From assembly GCA_030630015.1 (NCBI GenBank), contig DAOVNV010000002.1, positions 1-34,297 of the forward strand: DNA of 34,297 nucleotides. The letters run 5' to 3'. Position 1 is the stretch's first letter. Each line of letters starts with the position of its first letter. Of the stretch, positions 21,278-32,177 are shown piece by piece. The notes under the pieces were generated by a model. That model worked only from the letters and a program-made list of their open reading frames with translations, made no database searches and had not been told where the DNA came from. This stretch comes from Desulfuromonadales bacterium (GTDB lineage Bacteria; Desulfobacterota; Desulfuromonadia; Desulfuromonadales; BM103). Position numbers and translations under genes: made by a program.

Positions 21278-21550
21278 TTATTTTTTGTGGCAGTCGTTAC
21301 ACTTGGTCGGCCCACCCATCTCCTTATGGCAGGTCTTGCAGGCGTCTTTGTGTGCAGAAGCCTTGTCGATCACGATTTTGGCAGGCTCTCCCTCGTGGCA
21401 CTTGGCGCAGTCTCCGACTACTTCACTGTGAGCCTTGTGGTTGAAGGTGACGTTGCCCTTCTTAGCTTCGTACACCACGGTGTCTACGGCGATGGCGACG
21501 CCGACGCTGGCGAATGTGATCAGCATCATCAAGATAATCATTTTTTTCAT
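21278..21550 (-). CDS. Triheme c7-type periplasmic cytochrome (PpcA-like)
   Basis: 90 aa from ATG at 21550 with upstream AGGAGG; signal peptide; three CXXCH (CAKCH, CKTCH, CNDCH); VTFNHKAHSEVVGDCAKCH and GPTKCNDCHKK match the PpcA pattern. Confidence 0.93.
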   Translation of the reverse strand: MKKMIILMMLITFASVGVAIAVDTVVYEAKKGNVTFNHKAHSEVVGDCAKCHEGEPAKIVIDKASAHKDACKTCHKEMGGPTKCNDCHKK

Positions 21551-21778
21551 GGCTTTCCTCCTGAGTTTGAGGTTTTTTATTGGCCGGTTGGCCGGAAACT
21601 GTTTTGTGTCACTTATAACTAAAATGGACGTACAAAACATCAGACATCGGGGGATATACCGCTAGATGTCGGGTTGAAATTCCGTAATTACAGCTAGTTG
21701 AGACGCATGATGTCTGGTCTGAAAACTGTTCTTTTTTTCAGGTTTACAGGGCAGAGCCCCGACTGATAAAATCAGCGA

Positions 21779-22705
21779 ATGGGTATCGAACCGACGGAAA
21801 ATCATACTTCGACTGTTTGTCTGGATGGCAGCAAGGTCAAGCGCCAACGTGAAATTAATGGCTTGACTCAACTGTATATCAGCAAGGTTGTCGGGGTTAC
21901 GACCGATACGATCTCTCGTTGGGAGAATAATCGGTATCCGACGATACGTCGTGAAAATGCGCTCAATCTTGCAGAAGCTCTTGAAGTTCCCCTCGATCAA
22001 ATTCTTCGGAAGTTACCGGAAGAGGAGCTTGCTCCGGAACCCCATCGCACTAGGGTCTTGCCTCTGACTGTTGCGGGAAGTGTTCTGCTGCTGATTGTGA
22101 TGATTGCAGTCTGGTCTTTCCTGTCTCGCCAGGTTCCTGTTGCTGTCAATGTCGTCGCCGAGCGGATTCTGCCAGATTTTGCCGCACCGGCAACGGCAAT
22201 CCCCGTACAGGTGAAGCTGACTCATAATGGCGACGCGCAGGGCTTTATCCTCAGGGAGAATTTCCCACAAGGTTGGCAGCTTCTGGAAGCGTATCCTCCA
22301 CCCTCCAGTTTGGATAATGTCCATGGCGTTGCACGCTGGATCGTCAAGGCCGGTGACCAGGTAGAGAGGATTGTCTACCTGGTACAGGTTGATGCCTCTG
22401 CTTCTCAAGATGGTCCGGCAGCCTTTCGGGGCGAAATCATTGCTGGCACGGGTGATAACCAGATGTCGACTCTGATCCTGGGAGAGACCGGTTTGAAGGT
22501 CGCTTCCGTGCACTGGGCAGATTCCGATGGAGACGGCCGCATTGATGATTTGGAAATGCTGGACACTTCTTATACTGTTGATGAAATGACCGGAGTTCAC
22601 CTCGATTGGGATTACCTGGAGAGCCTCTGGGATGCGGATGGTTATCGTTGGAACGATCAGCAGAAAAGATTCGTGCCGCAGCATGTCGAAGAAAAGTCCC
22701 CCTAA
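21779..22705 (+). CDS. Membrane-anchored XRE-type HTH regulator with extracytoplasmic domain and EF-hand loop
   Basis: GLTQLYISKVVGVTTDTISRWENNRYPTIRRENALNLAEAL HTH; TM VLPLTVAGSVLLLIVMIAVWSFL; DSDGDGRIDDLE Ca-binding loop at 22520-22555. Confidence 0.85.
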   Translation: MGIEPTENHTSTVCLDGSKVKRQREINGLTQLYISKVVGVTTDTISRWENNRYPTIRRENALNLAEALEVPLDQILRKLPEEELAPEPHRTRVLPLTVAGSVLLLIVMIAVWSFLSRQVPVAVNVVAERILPDFAAPATAIPVQVKLTHNGDAQGFILRENFPQGWQLLEAYPPPSSLDNVHGVARWIVKAGDQVERIVYLVQVDASASQDGPAAFRGEIIAGTGDNQMSTLILGETGLKVASVHWADSDGDGRIDDLEMLDTSYTVDEMTGVHLDWDYLESLWDADGYRWNDQQKRFVPQHVEEKSP

Positions 22706-23288: not shown

Positions 23289-23900
23289 TTGATGCTTATG
23301 AATCTGCATGTACTCACTAAAGAACGATTGAACTTTCTGATTGTTGATCCGTCGGAGTCAATCTGTCAGCTACTGGAGGCGATGCTTACTCCGGTGAAAA
23401 GCAATTTGGTTTTTGCCGGGAATGCTGATGACGGACTGGTGCAAGCACAGTCTTTCTGGCCGGATGTAATCATTGCTGACTATTCGCTTGACGGGTCCGG
23501 TGCTGTACTTTGCGAGCGTGTGAGACGTGATCCGATGCTGTGCCGGACGCCATTTATTCTGATGACTGCATTTACCAATCAGATCAGCCCGGCAAAATAC
23601 CTCAAATCCGGTTGTGATGAGATTGTTTACAAACCATTCAAATGCATGGAAATGTATAAGGCCATCCGTTCAGCCATCCAGCATACGGCTGTGGAAGGGA
23701 GAGGAACCATGATCCCCGTTCTCTATAAAACGGGTCAGTGCGACCATGTCAGCCCCAAACATCTCGACAAGATGATCAGGGAGGAAGAAATTGCCTGTTT
23801 CCGGCGCAGCGACGGTGTTGTGATGATTGGCCGTGATCCGGTGCGGACCGGCAAACCATCCAATTTCAACGGCCCCGAACGGCGTTGGGCTGCCGCCTGA
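23289..23900 (+). CDS. Response regulator receiver protein with short C-terminal module
   Basis: FLIVDPSESICQLLEAML...DVIIADYSLDGSGA...ILMTAF...VYKPF; tail IREEEIACFRRSDGVVMIGRDPVRTGKPSNFNGPERR. Start TTG 23289, ATG 23292 or ATG 23298. Confidence 0.9.
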   Translation: MMLMNLHVLTKERLNFLIVDPSESICQLLEAMLTPVKSNLVFAGNADDGLVQAQSFWPDVIIADYSLDGSGAVLCERVRRDPMLCRTPFILMTAFTNQISPAKYLKSGCDEIVYKPFKCMEMYKAIRSAIQHTAVEGRGTMIPVLYKTGQCDHVSPKHLDKMIREEEIACFRRSDGVVMIGRDPVRTGKPSNFNGPERRWAAA

Positions 23901-26992: not shown

Positions 26993-27961
26993 ATGGACCG
27001 TGTTCTCAATCTGCTCGCCGACGATATCCAACTCGTCGAGGCCCAGTTCCGCAAAGATCTGGATTCGCGTGTACCGCTAATCCGCAAGGTCGGCGAATAT
27101 GTCCTTTCCAGCGGAGGCAAGCGTATTCGCCCGATGCTTCTGCTGCTCAGCGCCCGCCTGGTTGGTTACACTGGTGATGCCCACGTCGGTCTGGCCAGTG
27201 TCGTCGAATTCATCCATACAGCTACTCTGCTGCATGATGACGTCGTTGACAGCGCTGTTTTGCGGCGCGGCCAGGACTCCGCCAACGCGATCTGGGGCAA
27301 CGAAGCCAGTGTGCTGGTCGGCGACTTTCTGTTCGCAAAATCTTTTTCGATCATGGTCCGCGGCGGTAACCTCGATATTTTGCGCGCCCTGTCGGATGCA
27401 ACCACCCAGATGGCGGAAGGGGAGGTTCTGCAACTGATAAGTACCTGTGATCTCGATCTTGACGAAGAGCATTATATCGAAGTTGTCCGCAATAAAACGG
27501 CGGTACTGCTTGCCGCAGCATGTCGATCCGGCGCCATTCTTGGAGACTGCCCCAAAGAACAGGAAGATGCCCTTGCCGCTTATGGCATGGACCTCGGCAT
27601 TGCTTTTCAGTTTATGGATGATGCCCTCGACTACGTGGCCGACCAGGAAGAGTTCGGCAAGGCGCAGGGCCATGACCTGCTCGAGGGCAAGGTGACGCTG
27701 CCCCTGATTCATGCCCTGCGACAGTGCACTGCCGATGAAAGGCAGCGGGCCGAAGTGATTGTTGATCAGGACGAACTGCCGCAGGAAGACCTCGATTATG
27801 TGATTAAACTGATCGATACTTACGATGGCATCCTCTATACGCGGGAACGCGCTGGTATCTTTATCGACCAGGCGAAGGCCCGGCTCAACGTTTTTGCTGA
27901 AGGACCGATCAAGGAGGCTCTCTGCATCCTTGCCGACTACGTGGTCAGTCGCGCAAAATAA
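26993..27961 (+). CDS. Long-chain trans-polyprenyl diphosphate synthase (octaprenyl/heptaprenyl type)
   Basis: GGKRIRPMLLLLSARL, TATLLHDDVVDSAVLRRG, QFMDDALDYV. Confidence 0.94.
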   Translation: MDRVLNLLADDIQLVEAQFRKDLDSRVPLIRKVGEYVLSSGGKRIRPMLLLLSARLVGYTGDAHVGLASVVEFIHTATLLHDDVVDSAVLRRGQDSANAIWGNEASVLVGDFLFAKSFSIMVRGGNLDILRALSDATTQMAEGEVLQLISTCDLDLDEEHYIEVVRNKTAVLLAAACRSGAILGDCPKEQEDALAAYGMDLGIAFQFMDDALDYVADQEEFGKAQGHDLLEGKVTLPLIHALRQCTADERQRAEVIVDQDELPQEDLDYVIKLIDTYDGILYTRERAGIFIDQAKARLNVFAEGPIKEALCILADYVVSRAK

Positions 27962-28115: not shown

Positions 28116-30623
28116 ATGTTCCGTCTTTCCTACCATAAAAAGGTTCTCTATTCTTTTTGTGTCCTGTCGCTGGTTCCTCTGGTCCTGATGGCGATTTTTT
28201 CCGCCCTGAATCTCAGGACTGTCGAAGGAGTACTGCGCAGCAGTGCGATTGATGCCCTGGACCAGCAGGCGGCCGAGATGCTCGAACTTCGGGCGGTTAT
28301 GGTGGCCAACGAGGTCAGAACTTTCCTGCGCAGTGCAGAAGACCACCTGGCCGCTTTCGCGCAGTTGGAGCCCACCTCTGAAAACTATCTCCATTTCAGT
28401 CGTACGAACCGCCGGCAGATCTGGGTACGAGCCGGCACCAACGAGGAATCGTGGGAAGATCGCCTGGTAATCCCACTTTACAGCGAGTTGACTTTCGTTG
28501 GCGCCGATGGTTTCGAACGGGTGCGGATTCAGGGTGACCAGGTGCTTAATGAACTGCGCGACGTGTCAAATCCTGCGAATACGACCTATCTCACTGAAAC
28601 CTACTTTGCTTCTGCCCGGGATCTTCCTCCAGGACGCATCTATGTTTCGCACGTGACCGGATGGCATGTGAACAAGATGGAACAGTTGCAGGGTGCGGCA
28701 ACGCCCGAGGAGGCTGTCGAGGGGCAAAAATACAAGGGGGTTATCCGCTTTGCCAGGCCGGTTCATGCTGAGGACGGACATCTGAAAGGCGTCGCTGTCC
28801 TCTCCCTGGATCATCGCCACCTGATGGAGTTCACCCAACATATCAGCCCCACGGAGGAGCGGTTCGTTGTTTTCCCCTCCTACCAGAGCGGCAATTACGC
28901 GTTCATGTTTGACAACGAGGGCTGGATCATTACCCACCCGAAGCTCTGGGATATCCGTGGTTTGGACCGTGATGGCCACTTGGTTCCGCCTTTCACGGAA
29001 CACTCATCACCCGATGCGATCGCTCGAGGGATTATCCCCTACAACTTGGGACAGGCGGCTTTTATTCATCCCAACTATCCATTTGCCCATCAAGCGGTTC
29101 TCGGTGGACGTTCGGGTGTGGTCGATGTGACCAATGTCGGTGGATCGCGCAAAATTATGGCTTATGCTCCGATTTTCTATGACCCGGGTCTCTATGCCGA
29201 AAGTGGTGTCTTCGGCGGGGTGACGATCGGTGCCGAGGTGCGCCAGTTCCACAAGACCGCCGAGCAAGCTTCGGCCCGCATCAACAAGCTTTTTGCCGGT
29301 TTCCTGGGCAGCGCCTGGATTTTGATCGGCCTGACTGCGGTGCTTGTCGCTTTTGCGGCCTACAAGCTTTCGCGCAGCGTGACCAATCCTCTTTCAAGTC
29401 TTATCTCGACTACCCGGGAAATGGCGCGCGGCAACCTGGAGACCAGGGTCGATATCAAGAGCCCCGCAGAGGTGGCTGATCTTGCCACCGCGTTCAATCG
29501 CATGGCCAGTCAGTTGCGTGAGCGGCAAAGCCGGCTGCTCAAAACCCTGTCTCAACTGCGCAACTCGCGCCATGAAATTCTGCGTGAGCGAAACCTGACG
29601 ATGACGATCGTCGAAAGCGTCGATACAGGTATCCTGACGCTGGATATCGAGAACCGGGTCACGTCATTTAATAGTGCGGCAGAACATATCCTGGGGTTGC
29701 GTGAGATGCCGCTCAAAACTGCCCTGTCTGATGTATTGAAGGATTGGCCTGAATTGAAAGAGGTTCTGGAGAATGTACCGTTCCAATCCAAATGGGGGGA
29801 GTATGTGTCCATGGAGCGAAAGGGCAATGCCCTGACCTTCCTCCTGACTCTCTATCCCTTGACCACCGGGACGGATGCTGGCCGGATTCTGACCGTGGAA
29901 GACCTGACGGAACGGGTCAACCTCCGCCAGCAGATGGCGCGTTTCGAACGCCTTGCATCTTTGGGAAGGCTGTCTGCCGGAATAGCCCATGAAGTCAGGA
30001 ACCCGTTAACCGGTATCAGTTTGCTGCTCGACGAACTGCATGACCGCCTGCTCGCCAATCCTGGTGACCAGCTTCTGATCCAGAAAGCCCTGCAGGAAAT
30101 TGAGCGACTGGAAGGGCTGGTCAGTGAACTCCTGCATTTCTCATCGTTGCCTGTGACGCGTCGTTCCAAAGGGGACATCGCCAAGGTTCTGAACGATACG
30201 CTTTTCCTAGTCAAAAAACAGTGCGAGCGACAGAATGTGGAACTGCTGATCGACCTTCCTGAGGGGTTGCCGCACCTGAGTGTGGATGCCGACCAACTCA
30301 AGCAGGCGTTTCTTAACCTGCTGACCAATGCCCTGGATGCCATGCCCGGCGGAGGACGTCTCTCCGTTTCCATCCGTGCCGGTGATGAGAACCTTTGCAT
30401 CTCCTTTGCCGATACCGGTGAAGGGATTGTCGCCGAAAAAACCGCTCTGATTTTCGAACCTTTTTATACCACCAAAGGGGAGGGGACCGGGCTGGGTCTT
30501 TCTATCACGCATACGATCATCGCCAATCATGGTGGGCATATTGAAGTCAAAAGCCGCCCCGGTGAGGGTACGACTTTTGAGATATGTCTGCCTTTTGATG
30601 GCCGAAAATCGCCTCAAATGTGA
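28116..30623 (+). CDS. Sensor histidine kinase: Cache-like periplasmic sensor, HAMP, PAS, HisKA, HATPase
   Basis: Two TMs flanking a ~370-aa periplasmic region; ASLGRLSAGIAHEVRNPLTGISLLLDEL; NALDAMPGGG, DTGEGI, GTGLGLSI. Confidence 0.93.
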   Translation: MFRLSYHKKVLYSFCVLSLVPLVLMAIFSALNLRTVEGVLRSSAIDALDQQAAEMLELRAVMVANEVRTFLRSAEDHLAAFAQLEPTSENYLHFSRTNRRQIWVRAGTNEESWEDRLVIPLYSELTFVGADGFERVRIQGDQVLNELRDVSNPANTTYLTETYFASARDLPPGRIYVSHVTGWHVNKMEQLQGAATPEEAVEGQKYKGVIRFARPVHAEDGHLKGVAVLSLDHRHLMEFTQHISPTEERFVVFPSYQSGNYAFMFDNEGWIITHPKLWDIRGLDRDGHLVPPFTEHSSPDAIARGIIPYNLGQAAFIHPNYPFAHQAVLGGRSGVVDVTNVGGSRKIMAYAPIFYDPGLYAESGVFGGVTIGAEVRQFHKTAEQASARINKLFAGFLGSAWILIGLTAVLVAFAAYKLSRSVTNPLSSLISTTREMARGNLETRVDIKSPAEVADLATAFNRMASQLRERQSRLLKTLSQLRNSRHEILRERNLTMTIVESVDTGILTLDIENRVTSFNSAAEHILGLREMPLKTALSDVLKDWPELKEVLENVPFQSKWGEYVSMERKGNALTFLLTLYPLTTGTDAGRILTVEDLTERVNLRQQMARFERLASLGRLSAGIAHEVRNPLTGISLLLDELHDRLLANPGDQLLIQKALQEIERLEGLVSELLHFSSLPVTRRSKGDIAKVLNDTLFLVKKQCERQNVELLIDLPEGLPHLSVDADQLKQAFLNLLTNALDAMPGGGRLSVSIRAGDENLCISFADTGEGIVAEKTALIFEPFYTTKGEGTGLGLSITHTIIANHGGHIEVKSRPGEGTTFEICLPFDGRKSPQM

Positions 30624-30788
30624 GTTTTGTGTTTGTGATAGTAGGCTTCCGGGAGAAATCTGGCCAAAATCCACCATTTTTTTGTTGTCATCATGCAGGA
30701 TATCCCGTTAGAATGCACCAACCTATCTAGGAGGCTGTCGAACTATTCATGAGTCAATCTCCTGGGTGATGAAAGGCTGGGGTCTGCT

Positions 30789-32177
30789 ATGGAAAGAATT
30801 CTGGTTGTCGATGACGAGGCATTTATCCGGGAAAACCTGGAACGGATCCTCGAAGAAGACGGTTATCGACCATACTCAACGGCCAGCGGCGACGAGGCTG
30901 TCCGTGAGGTCAGTGAAGAAGAAATCGACCTAGTGCTGCTTGACCTGAATCTGGGCAACAAGAGCGGCCTGGATGTTCTGCGTGCCATGCGGGAGGTTGA
31001 TCCCGAGGTTCTGGTGATTATTATTACCGGCTACGGTACGGTGGAGAGTGCCGTCGAAGCCCTGAAACTTGGGGCATACGATTACATCAAGAAGCCTTTC
31101 AAGGCGGATGCGATCCGATTGATTGTCCGCCTCGCCCTGGAGACCCAGAATCTCAGGCGTGAGGTCAGGCAGCTACGCCGCAGCAATCCCATGCGCGACC
31201 TGCCGGATGATTCAGTTATGGTCGGGTCAAGCCCGCAACTGATGCAGGTCTATCGGCAGATCAGGGAGGTTGCCAAGCATGAGACGGCGACCGTCCTGGT
31301 AACCGGCGAATCCGGGACCGGCAAGGAACTTGTGGCACGCGCCGTACACCATCTCTCCCCGCGCGAGGGAAAACCTTTCATCGAGATCAATTGCGGATCC
31401 CTGCCTTTCAACCTGCTTGAAACAGAATTGTTTGGTCATGAGCGCGGTGCATTCACGGATGCCAAATCGCGCAAGATCGGTCTGTTCGAAGAAGCTGATG
31501 GAGGGACGATCTTTCTCGATGAAATCGGTGAGATGGATATGAATCTGCAGGTGAAACTGCTGCGGGTTCTCGAAGATCGGAAAATTAGACGGCTCGGGGG
31601 AACGCGCAACATCGATATCGACGTCAGGGTGATCGCTGCGACGAATCGAGATTTGAAGGAAGCCCTTGAGCAGAAGGCTTTTCGAGAAGATCTCTACTAC
31701 CGCTTGAACGTTTTTCCTATCCACGTTTCACCGTTACGCGAGAGACGTGAGGATATCCCGGCCCTCCTCGAACTCTTTCTGAAACATTTCAGCAGTGCGT
31801 TCAATAAGGATATTCGCGAGATCTCCAGGGACGCACTTGACCTGCTCATGCGCTACCACTGGCCCGGCAATGTGCGTGAATTGCGCAATGTGGTTGAGCG
31901 GATCTGCATCATGAATGACCGGCAGACCCTTCTGTCCGACTGCCTGCCGCGTGAAATATGGGGCGAAGAGCCGCTCAAGGAGACCCCTTTCACATATCAG
32001 GTTCCTCCCGAAGGTCTTCTCTTTGAAGAGATCGTTGAACAGGTGGAGAAAAGCCTGATCAGTCAAGCTGTACAGATGACAGGCGGCAATGTGGCTAAAA
32101 CGGCGCGTCTGCTCAGTTTGCCGAGGGGGACCCTGCGCTACAAAATGGAGAAGTACGGGTTGGTCGAAACCGTGTAA
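30789..32177 (+). CDS. NtrC-family sigma-54-dependent response regulator
   Basis: ILVVDDEAFIRENL, LVLLDLNLGNKSG, GESGTGKELVARAVH, GAFTDA, GGTIFLDEIGEM, C-terminal Fis-type HTH. Confidence 0.96.
   Translation: MERILVVDDEAFIRENLERILEEDGYRPYSTASGDEAVREVSEEEIDLVLLDLNLGNKSGLDVLRAMREVDPEVLVIIITGYGTVESAVEALKLGAYDYIKKPFKADAIRLIVRLALETQNLRREVRQLRRSNPMRDLPDDSVMVGSSPQLMQVYRQIREVAKHETATVLVTGESGTGKELVARAVHHLSPREGKPFIEINCGSLPFNLLETELFGHERGAFTDAKSRKIGLFEEADGGTIFLDEIGEMDMNLQVKLLRVLEDRKIRRLGGTRNIDIDVRVIAATNRDLKEALEQKAFREDLYYRLNVFPIHVSPLRERREDIPALLELFLKHFSSAFNKDIREISRDALDLLMRYHWPGNVRELRNVVERICIMNDRQTLLSDCLPREIWGEEPLKETPFTYQVPPEGLLFEEIVEQVEKSLISQAVQMTGGNVAKTARLLSLPRGTLRYKMEKYGLVETV

Follow-up and report, generated by a model that had tools for sequence, protein, structure and literature searches.

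A predicted transmembrane XRE-type regulator with a conserved EF-hand loop, and a candidate palindromic operator shared by PpcA-like cytochrome genes

Does a membrane protein with an XRE-type helix-turn-helix (HTH) domain control the PpcA-like cytochrome gene from which it is divergently transcribed, and does the EF-hand loop near its C-terminus play a part in this control? These questions are raised by a locus of a Desulfuromonadales bacterium that lies in a window of 34,297 nucleotides, which is an entire contig of a 2.24 Mb draft genome. Our preferred answer, which we hold with good but not complete confidence, is that the protein is a transmembrane one-component regulator that binds a palindrome and most likely activates the cytochrome gene, together with a few genes for exported proteins.

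The open reading frame of 308 amino acids, with an ATG start, was confirmed at positions 21779–22705 of the forward strand. Its product matches Pfam HTH_3 at residues 20–74 (E = 4e-10, 39.9 bits against a cut-off of 23), which assigns it to the XRE family. HTH_3, HTH_19 and HTH_31 are the Pfam matches in 45/45 members of the regulator family. Pfam, orthologue conservation and AlphaFold (AF2) together delimit a cytoplasmic XRE/HTH_3 DNA-binding domain at residues 17–74 (21827–22000, forward strand), of which VGVTTDTISRWENNRYP, the HTH recognition region, is nearly invariant among orthologues. A PDB sequence search with the regulator returned relatives of the HTH only, the best being phage repressors and CylR2. 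The hydrophobic segment VLPLTVAGSVLLLIVMIAV, residues 93–111, is the sole transmembrane helix, placed by the orthologue alignment and AF2 at about residues 93–115 (22055–22123, forward strand). The segment is present in 61/61 orthologues and lysine and arginine are richer on its HTH side (2.7 vs 1.3), a positive-inside bias.

An AF2 model built from 45 orthologues (mean pLDDT 91) places the HTH at residues 17–67, the transmembrane helix at 96–115, a beta-sandwich at 125–241 and two helices at 257–269 and 277–285. Because of the positive-inside bias and this model, the regulator is predicted to span the membrane once, with its C-terminal sensor outside the cytoplasm. Modelled separately, the extracytoplasmic part (pLDDT 94.5, pTM 0.89) consists of an Ig-like beta-sandwich, the loop of the EF-hand, a pair of helices and a hairpin. 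Foldseek searches with this domain, whose Ig-like sandwich is encoded at 22151–22501 of the forward strand, retrieved generic Ig-like folds only, with low TM-scores and no indication of function. The XRE HTH, single transmembrane helix and extracytoplasmic domain described in the first-pass annotation were thus all recovered, and the AlphaFold model that it had proposed as a check shows the HTH, the membrane helix and, outside it, a beta-sandwich with the EF-hand loop.

The first-pass annotation had also called the loop DSDGDGRIDDLE (residues 248–259; 22520–22555, forward strand) a perfect EF-hand, and this reading held when orthologues were compared. The loop has the 12-residue EF-hand pattern with ligands at positions 1, 3, 5, 9 and 12. 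Among 61 distinct orthologues, position 1 is always D, position 12 is always E and positions 3 and 5 are always D or N, while position 9 holds D in 55 orthologues, S in five and N in one. Since the ligands are kept in all 61 orthologues, the loop is no chance motif. At E ≤ 1, Pfam EF-hand models gave no match to the full-length window protein, and EF-hand_5 matched 4 of 21 extracytoplasmic domains weakly (best E 0.0085). Owing to the weakness of these matches, we base the EF-hand assignment on the ligand pattern and the structural model rather than on a family score. Binding of Ca2+ is plausible, as predicted from the conserved ligand set, and the ion could be a signal or merely structural. 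A second, partial EF-hand had been proposed at DADGYRWND and had to be discarded: its acidic positions vary (residue 287 is G in 42/61 orthologues). What is conserved there instead is a W-x4-Y-x-W motif at residues 284–291 (22628–22651, forward strand), with W284 in 61/61, Y289 in 61/61 and W291 in 58/61 orthologues.

How does this protein compare with known systems? ToxR, CadC and TcpP carry an OmpR-type winged helix. They have their topology and one-component logic in common with the regulator, whereas the latter combines HTH_3/XRE with an Ig-like/EF-hand sensor. No winged-helix family was found among the Pfam matches of the 45 family members, and because the DNA-binding fold differs we place the regulator outside the ToxR/CadC family; the proposed ToxR/CadC-like topology with an XRE-type DNA-binding domain agrees with the HTH_3 match, the lysine and arginine bias and the AF2 model. 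BcrR of Enterococcus faecalis has an HTH of the XRE type. It acts from the membrane as a one-component regulator and activates a neighbouring set of genes, but it senses bacitracin through a four-helix membrane domain and has no periplasmic domain, while the regulator described here has a single transmembrane helix and an extracytoplasmic sensor (PMC3968067, PMC13384398). With a cytoplasmic DNA-binding domain and a transmembrane segment in one chain (HTH_3 match, segment in 61/61 orthologues, AF2), the predicted architecture puts the regulator among the transmembrane transcription regulators, likewise single-pass inner-membrane proteins with a cytoplasmic DNA-binding domain. In the survey of these regulators by Demey et al. 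2023, about 56% are single-pass and most have HTH domains (PMC10269533); its searchable text does not mention EF-hands, calcium or cytochromes, whereas here a specific candidate operator and a conserved predicted regulon are defined. The literature searched contained no description of this regulator or its operator and no dedicated regulator of cytochromes of the PpcA type; searches for a membrane regulator with an EF-hand, or for a dockerin/HTH protein, likewise returned nothing of relevance.

Orthologues of the regulator were detected in 128/195 related genomes, almost always as a single copy and with 35–63% identity. They span the family, order and class, and the relative families f4 and f22 appear to lack the regulator. 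Remote relatives with around 30–35% identity occur in Desulfopila, Desulfofustis and other Desulfobulbia-type genomes. No paralogue was found in the window's own genome, where the search gave only a weak 39% match over 61 residues. Downstream of the regulator, a stand-alone receiver-domain-like protein (23289–23900) is well conserved only in a genome of the same genus (70% identity). An ispB-type polyprenyl-diphosphate-synthase-like gene (26993–27961) lies 4.3 kb downstream; 13 relatives have counterparts near the regulator (the best about 70% identical), several of them directly downstream. Relatives of a histidine kinase and response regulator at 28116–32177 are likewise found near the regulator in 12–16 relatives.

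PpcA-type cytochromes are electron carriers of metal-reducing bacteria that bring electrons across the periplasm to outside acceptors. The divergent gene of the window, our predicted target, encodes a PpcA-like triheme cytochrome c7 with a signal peptide on the reverse strand at 21278–21550, in agreement with the first-pass annotation. Its start is at 21550 and not at 21640. The protein contains three CXXCH motifs and matches NCBIfam CytC7_Geobact over its full length with 94.5 bits, under the 120-bit cut-off of that model. A small cytochrome gene with three (c7) or four (c3) haems is divergent and directly upstream of the regulator at 47 of 61 distinct orthologue loci. Geobacter sulfurreducens PpcA (GSU0612) is a triheme c7 like the predicted target. 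We considered its neighbour by locus number, GSU0613, as a regulator orthologue and rejected it, as it is a ResB-like protein of cytochrome c biogenesis (PMC2700814, PMC7894505). No regulator orthologue beside ppcA of G. sulfurreducens is reported in the literature searched.

The gap between the two genes contains a candidate operator, the palindrome GACATC-N16-GATGTC at 21643–21670. In 47 orthologous regulator/cytochrome gaps the palindrome is exact in 41, has one mismatch in four and two mismatches in two. Half-sites are spaced by 16 nucleotides in 41/47 gaps and by any other given distance in at most three. The arms are 22 bp apart, or two helical turns, as would be expected if two XRE dimers bound the same face of the helix. 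A third half-site, GATGTC at 21709–21714 (forward strand), lies on the regulator side, 44 bp from the right arm of the operator, and recurs in relatives: among the 41 gaps whose operator is exact, 13 have a half-site (at least 5/6 matches) at this same offset. Between the operator and the third half-site, a TGATTWCAGTANGTT-like block at 21683–21699 is found at a similar position in many relatives. The operator was absent from the first-pass annotation, as was the wider regulon of basic exported proteins described below, one of which is encoded in the window's own genome.

We scanned genomes for the operator by pattern matching only. The extended pattern GACATCN16GATGTCGRG was found in 68/195 genomes and its reversed control in 0. 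The 12-base form GACATCN16GATGTC occurred in 95/138 genomes, compared with 4/138 for the control pattern, and was present in 91/108 genomes with the regulator vs 4/30 without a detected regulator, counts that do not represent independent events because many of the genomes are closely related. All four site-positive genomes without a detected regulator are drafts from families where the regulator is common. Absence was also shared, with neither regulator nor site in 14 f4 genomes and in any f22 genome. In f6 and most f7 relatives the regulator is present and the exact site is absent. The N16 palindrome is absent from the genomes of the Desulfobulbia relatives as well, yet in three of five of them (L032, L033, L035) GACATC/GATGTC half-site words cluster just upstream of the regulator, next to a divergent gene for a small secreted protein where this is readable. 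Words kept upstream without the N16 palindrome suggest an old DNA word whose arrangement has changed.

The window's own genome has exactly two exact sites, one in the cytochrome gap and one 51 bp before the gene of a basic lipoprotein. Allowing one mismatch gave six matches, the two exact sites included, vs two for the control, and the one-mismatch matches look like background. Two of the three c7-like genes of this genome, those other than the divergent one, have no exact operator upstream.

Is the palindrome a property of the locus or of the cytochrome gene? Outside the Desulfobulbia, nine loci have no adjacent cytochrome gene (genomes G027, G029, G030, G034, G045, G048, G050, G056 and G058). 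In seven of these nine genomes the palindrome lies about 60–110 bp upstream of an unlinked c7/c3 gene (L129, L152, L154, L155, L156, L166 and L167), so its conservation tracks the cytochrome gene and not just the locus. In G048 the palindrome precedes a gene whose small product is exported, and an exact palindrome is missing from the genome of G027. In G029 the regulator (L064 neighbourhood) and the c7 cytochrome (L129) are around 32 kb apart on one contig, and the operator stays with the cytochrome. The exact palindrome in 41/47 gaps and in 7/9 unlinked cases lends strong comparative support to the suggestion of the first-pass annotation that the protein may regulate the divergent cytochrome gene.

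Beyond the cytochromes, the sites point to a wider set of predicted targets. Of 70 off-locus sites inspected, roughly 60 lie upstream of a gene whose product is a cytochrome or is exported; for 42 exported-protein targets the median distance from site to ATG is 82 bp. Most of the remaining off-locus sites fall within long open reading frames and resemble background. Genomes of the window's family have a lipoprotein as target, basic, His-rich and about 350–445 amino acids long; the own-genome copy (G000:C4) begins 51 bp past its site, which is at G000:C4:22739-22766. Such lipoproteins with an upstream operator were seen at L140 (the own-genome copy), L143–L147, L149 and L150, and L140 has no credible family in Pfam and NCBIfam. 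Other families have a small exported protein in this place (n = 32; median pI 10.9, 10.6% His, 15.8% Arg), with a C-terminal W or F in 26/32. Small targets of this kind (L114–L127, L135–L138, L142, L158–L162, L168, L170, L174, L175 and L184) are very basic and rich in His, Arg and Tyr, they mostly end in a hydrophobic strand with W/F, and for their representatives Pfam and NCBIfam gave no credible family. In two genomes (L119, L182) the operator is upstream of a small monoheme cytochrome c (GNSRKGK..CKTCHG / CKSCHG).

Promoter elements were found at a fixed position relative to the operator. In the window, a −10 element, TATAAG, starts exactly 25 bp after the operator on the cytochrome side (21612–21617, reverse strand). 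At this offset a TATAAT-like hexamer (at least 4/6 matches) is present for 68% of the cytochromes adjacent to the regulator, 86% of those unlinked to it and 65% of the exported-protein targets, while other offsets had medians of 0–3% across the three target groups (2% for adjacent cytochromes). With a 17 bp spacer, the implied −35 element starts 2 bp past the operator and is weak across targets (ATGTTT and ATGAAA are examples); the window has ATGTTT at 21635–21640 (reverse strand). An operator abutting a weak −35 at a fixed distance would correspond to the layout of a class II activator, and it is solely from this geometry that we argue for positive control. On the other side of the gap, the regulator has a promoter-like element, TTTACA-N18-TAAAAT (21743–21772, forward strand), similar in relatives. 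Because its −10-like TAAAAT ends 6 bp before the ATG, the regulator mRNA is probably leaderless; no Shine-Dalgarno sequence was found at its start (21779).

From the architecture, the EF-hand ligands, the operator and its promoter geometry, the membership of the regulon and the link to the cytochrome gene even when unlinked, we propose the following mechanism. The regulator would sit in the inner membrane and read the periplasm via its Ig-like and EF-hand domain. Its own XRE domain, as a paired dimer, would bind GACATC-N16-GATGTC. Once bound, it would most likely activate the divergent gene of the periplasmic c7/c3 cytochrome, along with a few genes whose products are lipoproteins or exported proteins of basic, His/Arg-rich composition, and it may also control its own gene. 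Periplasmic Ca2+ occupancy or a partner would modulate its activity.

The sign of regulation could be the opposite, with the regulator repressing the cytochrome and exported-protein genes. Many soluble XRE proteins, such as those of the P22 c2 and Cro types, are repressors, and so are the phage proteins that, with CylR2, are the closest PDB sequence relatives of the HTH. However, the operator overlaps neither the −10 nor the start. It is wholly upstream of the core promoter, at a constant distance and 2 bp from a poor −35, which is the arrangement of a class II activator, and we regard repression as unlikely. Another concern is the identity of the protein that reads the palindrome: a different, soluble regulator could have the same distribution as the regulator gene, the membrane protein merely sharing its locus. 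Against this, the operator hardly varies and neither does the recognition region of the HTH, the family-level absences in f4 and f22 agree, and whenever the cytochrome is a neighbour the site falls in the gap that precedes the regulator itself. This makes such a second factor rather improbable. More improbable still is a RodZ-like morphogenetic protein without a regulatory role. RodZ has a comparable HTH, transmembrane and periplasmic beta-domain layout, but it belongs to the HTH_25 family and has no operator, whereas the regulator is HTH_3. The regulator has no match to HTH_25 at E ≤ 1 in the Pfam scan, the same genome has a separate strong HTH_25 gene (85.8 bits), and operator and regulon are conserved, which leaves this reading hardly credible.

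The role of calcium is far more evenly balanced. With the same regulator and regulon, the EF-hand could bind Ca2+ for structure alone, locking the C-terminal helices in place, with another ligand, a partner protein, redox state or envelope stress as the true signal. The calcium site is single and unpaired; conservation of the loop goes along with that of the W-Y-W motif and of the helices after the loop, as in a structural site; and the Ig-like domain is a typical partner-binding fold. We give this version even chances. A more tentative idea is that the regulator is calcium-gated and links the divalent-cation state of the periplasm (or cell surface) with the supply both of the main electron-shuttle cytochrome of the periplasm and of basic His-rich envelope proteins, across a class of metal- and sulfur-reducing bacteria. 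It is likewise speculative that the amounts of cytochrome and basic envelope proteins supplied depend on divalent cations or on the state of the envelope.

For the transmembrane activator that we favour, the locus provides a predicted regulator of the PpcA-type electron-transfer step; with the protein named, its candidate DNA site exactly defined and the list of targets short, regulation of this step is now testable. The pairing of regulator and cytochrome and their shared DNA site run across a group of sediment bacteria. They point to an uncharacterised family of small His/Arg-rich exported proteins that is predicted to be co-regulated with the cytochrome, and to a sensor domain of Ig and EF-hand type joined to an XRE DNA-binding domain.
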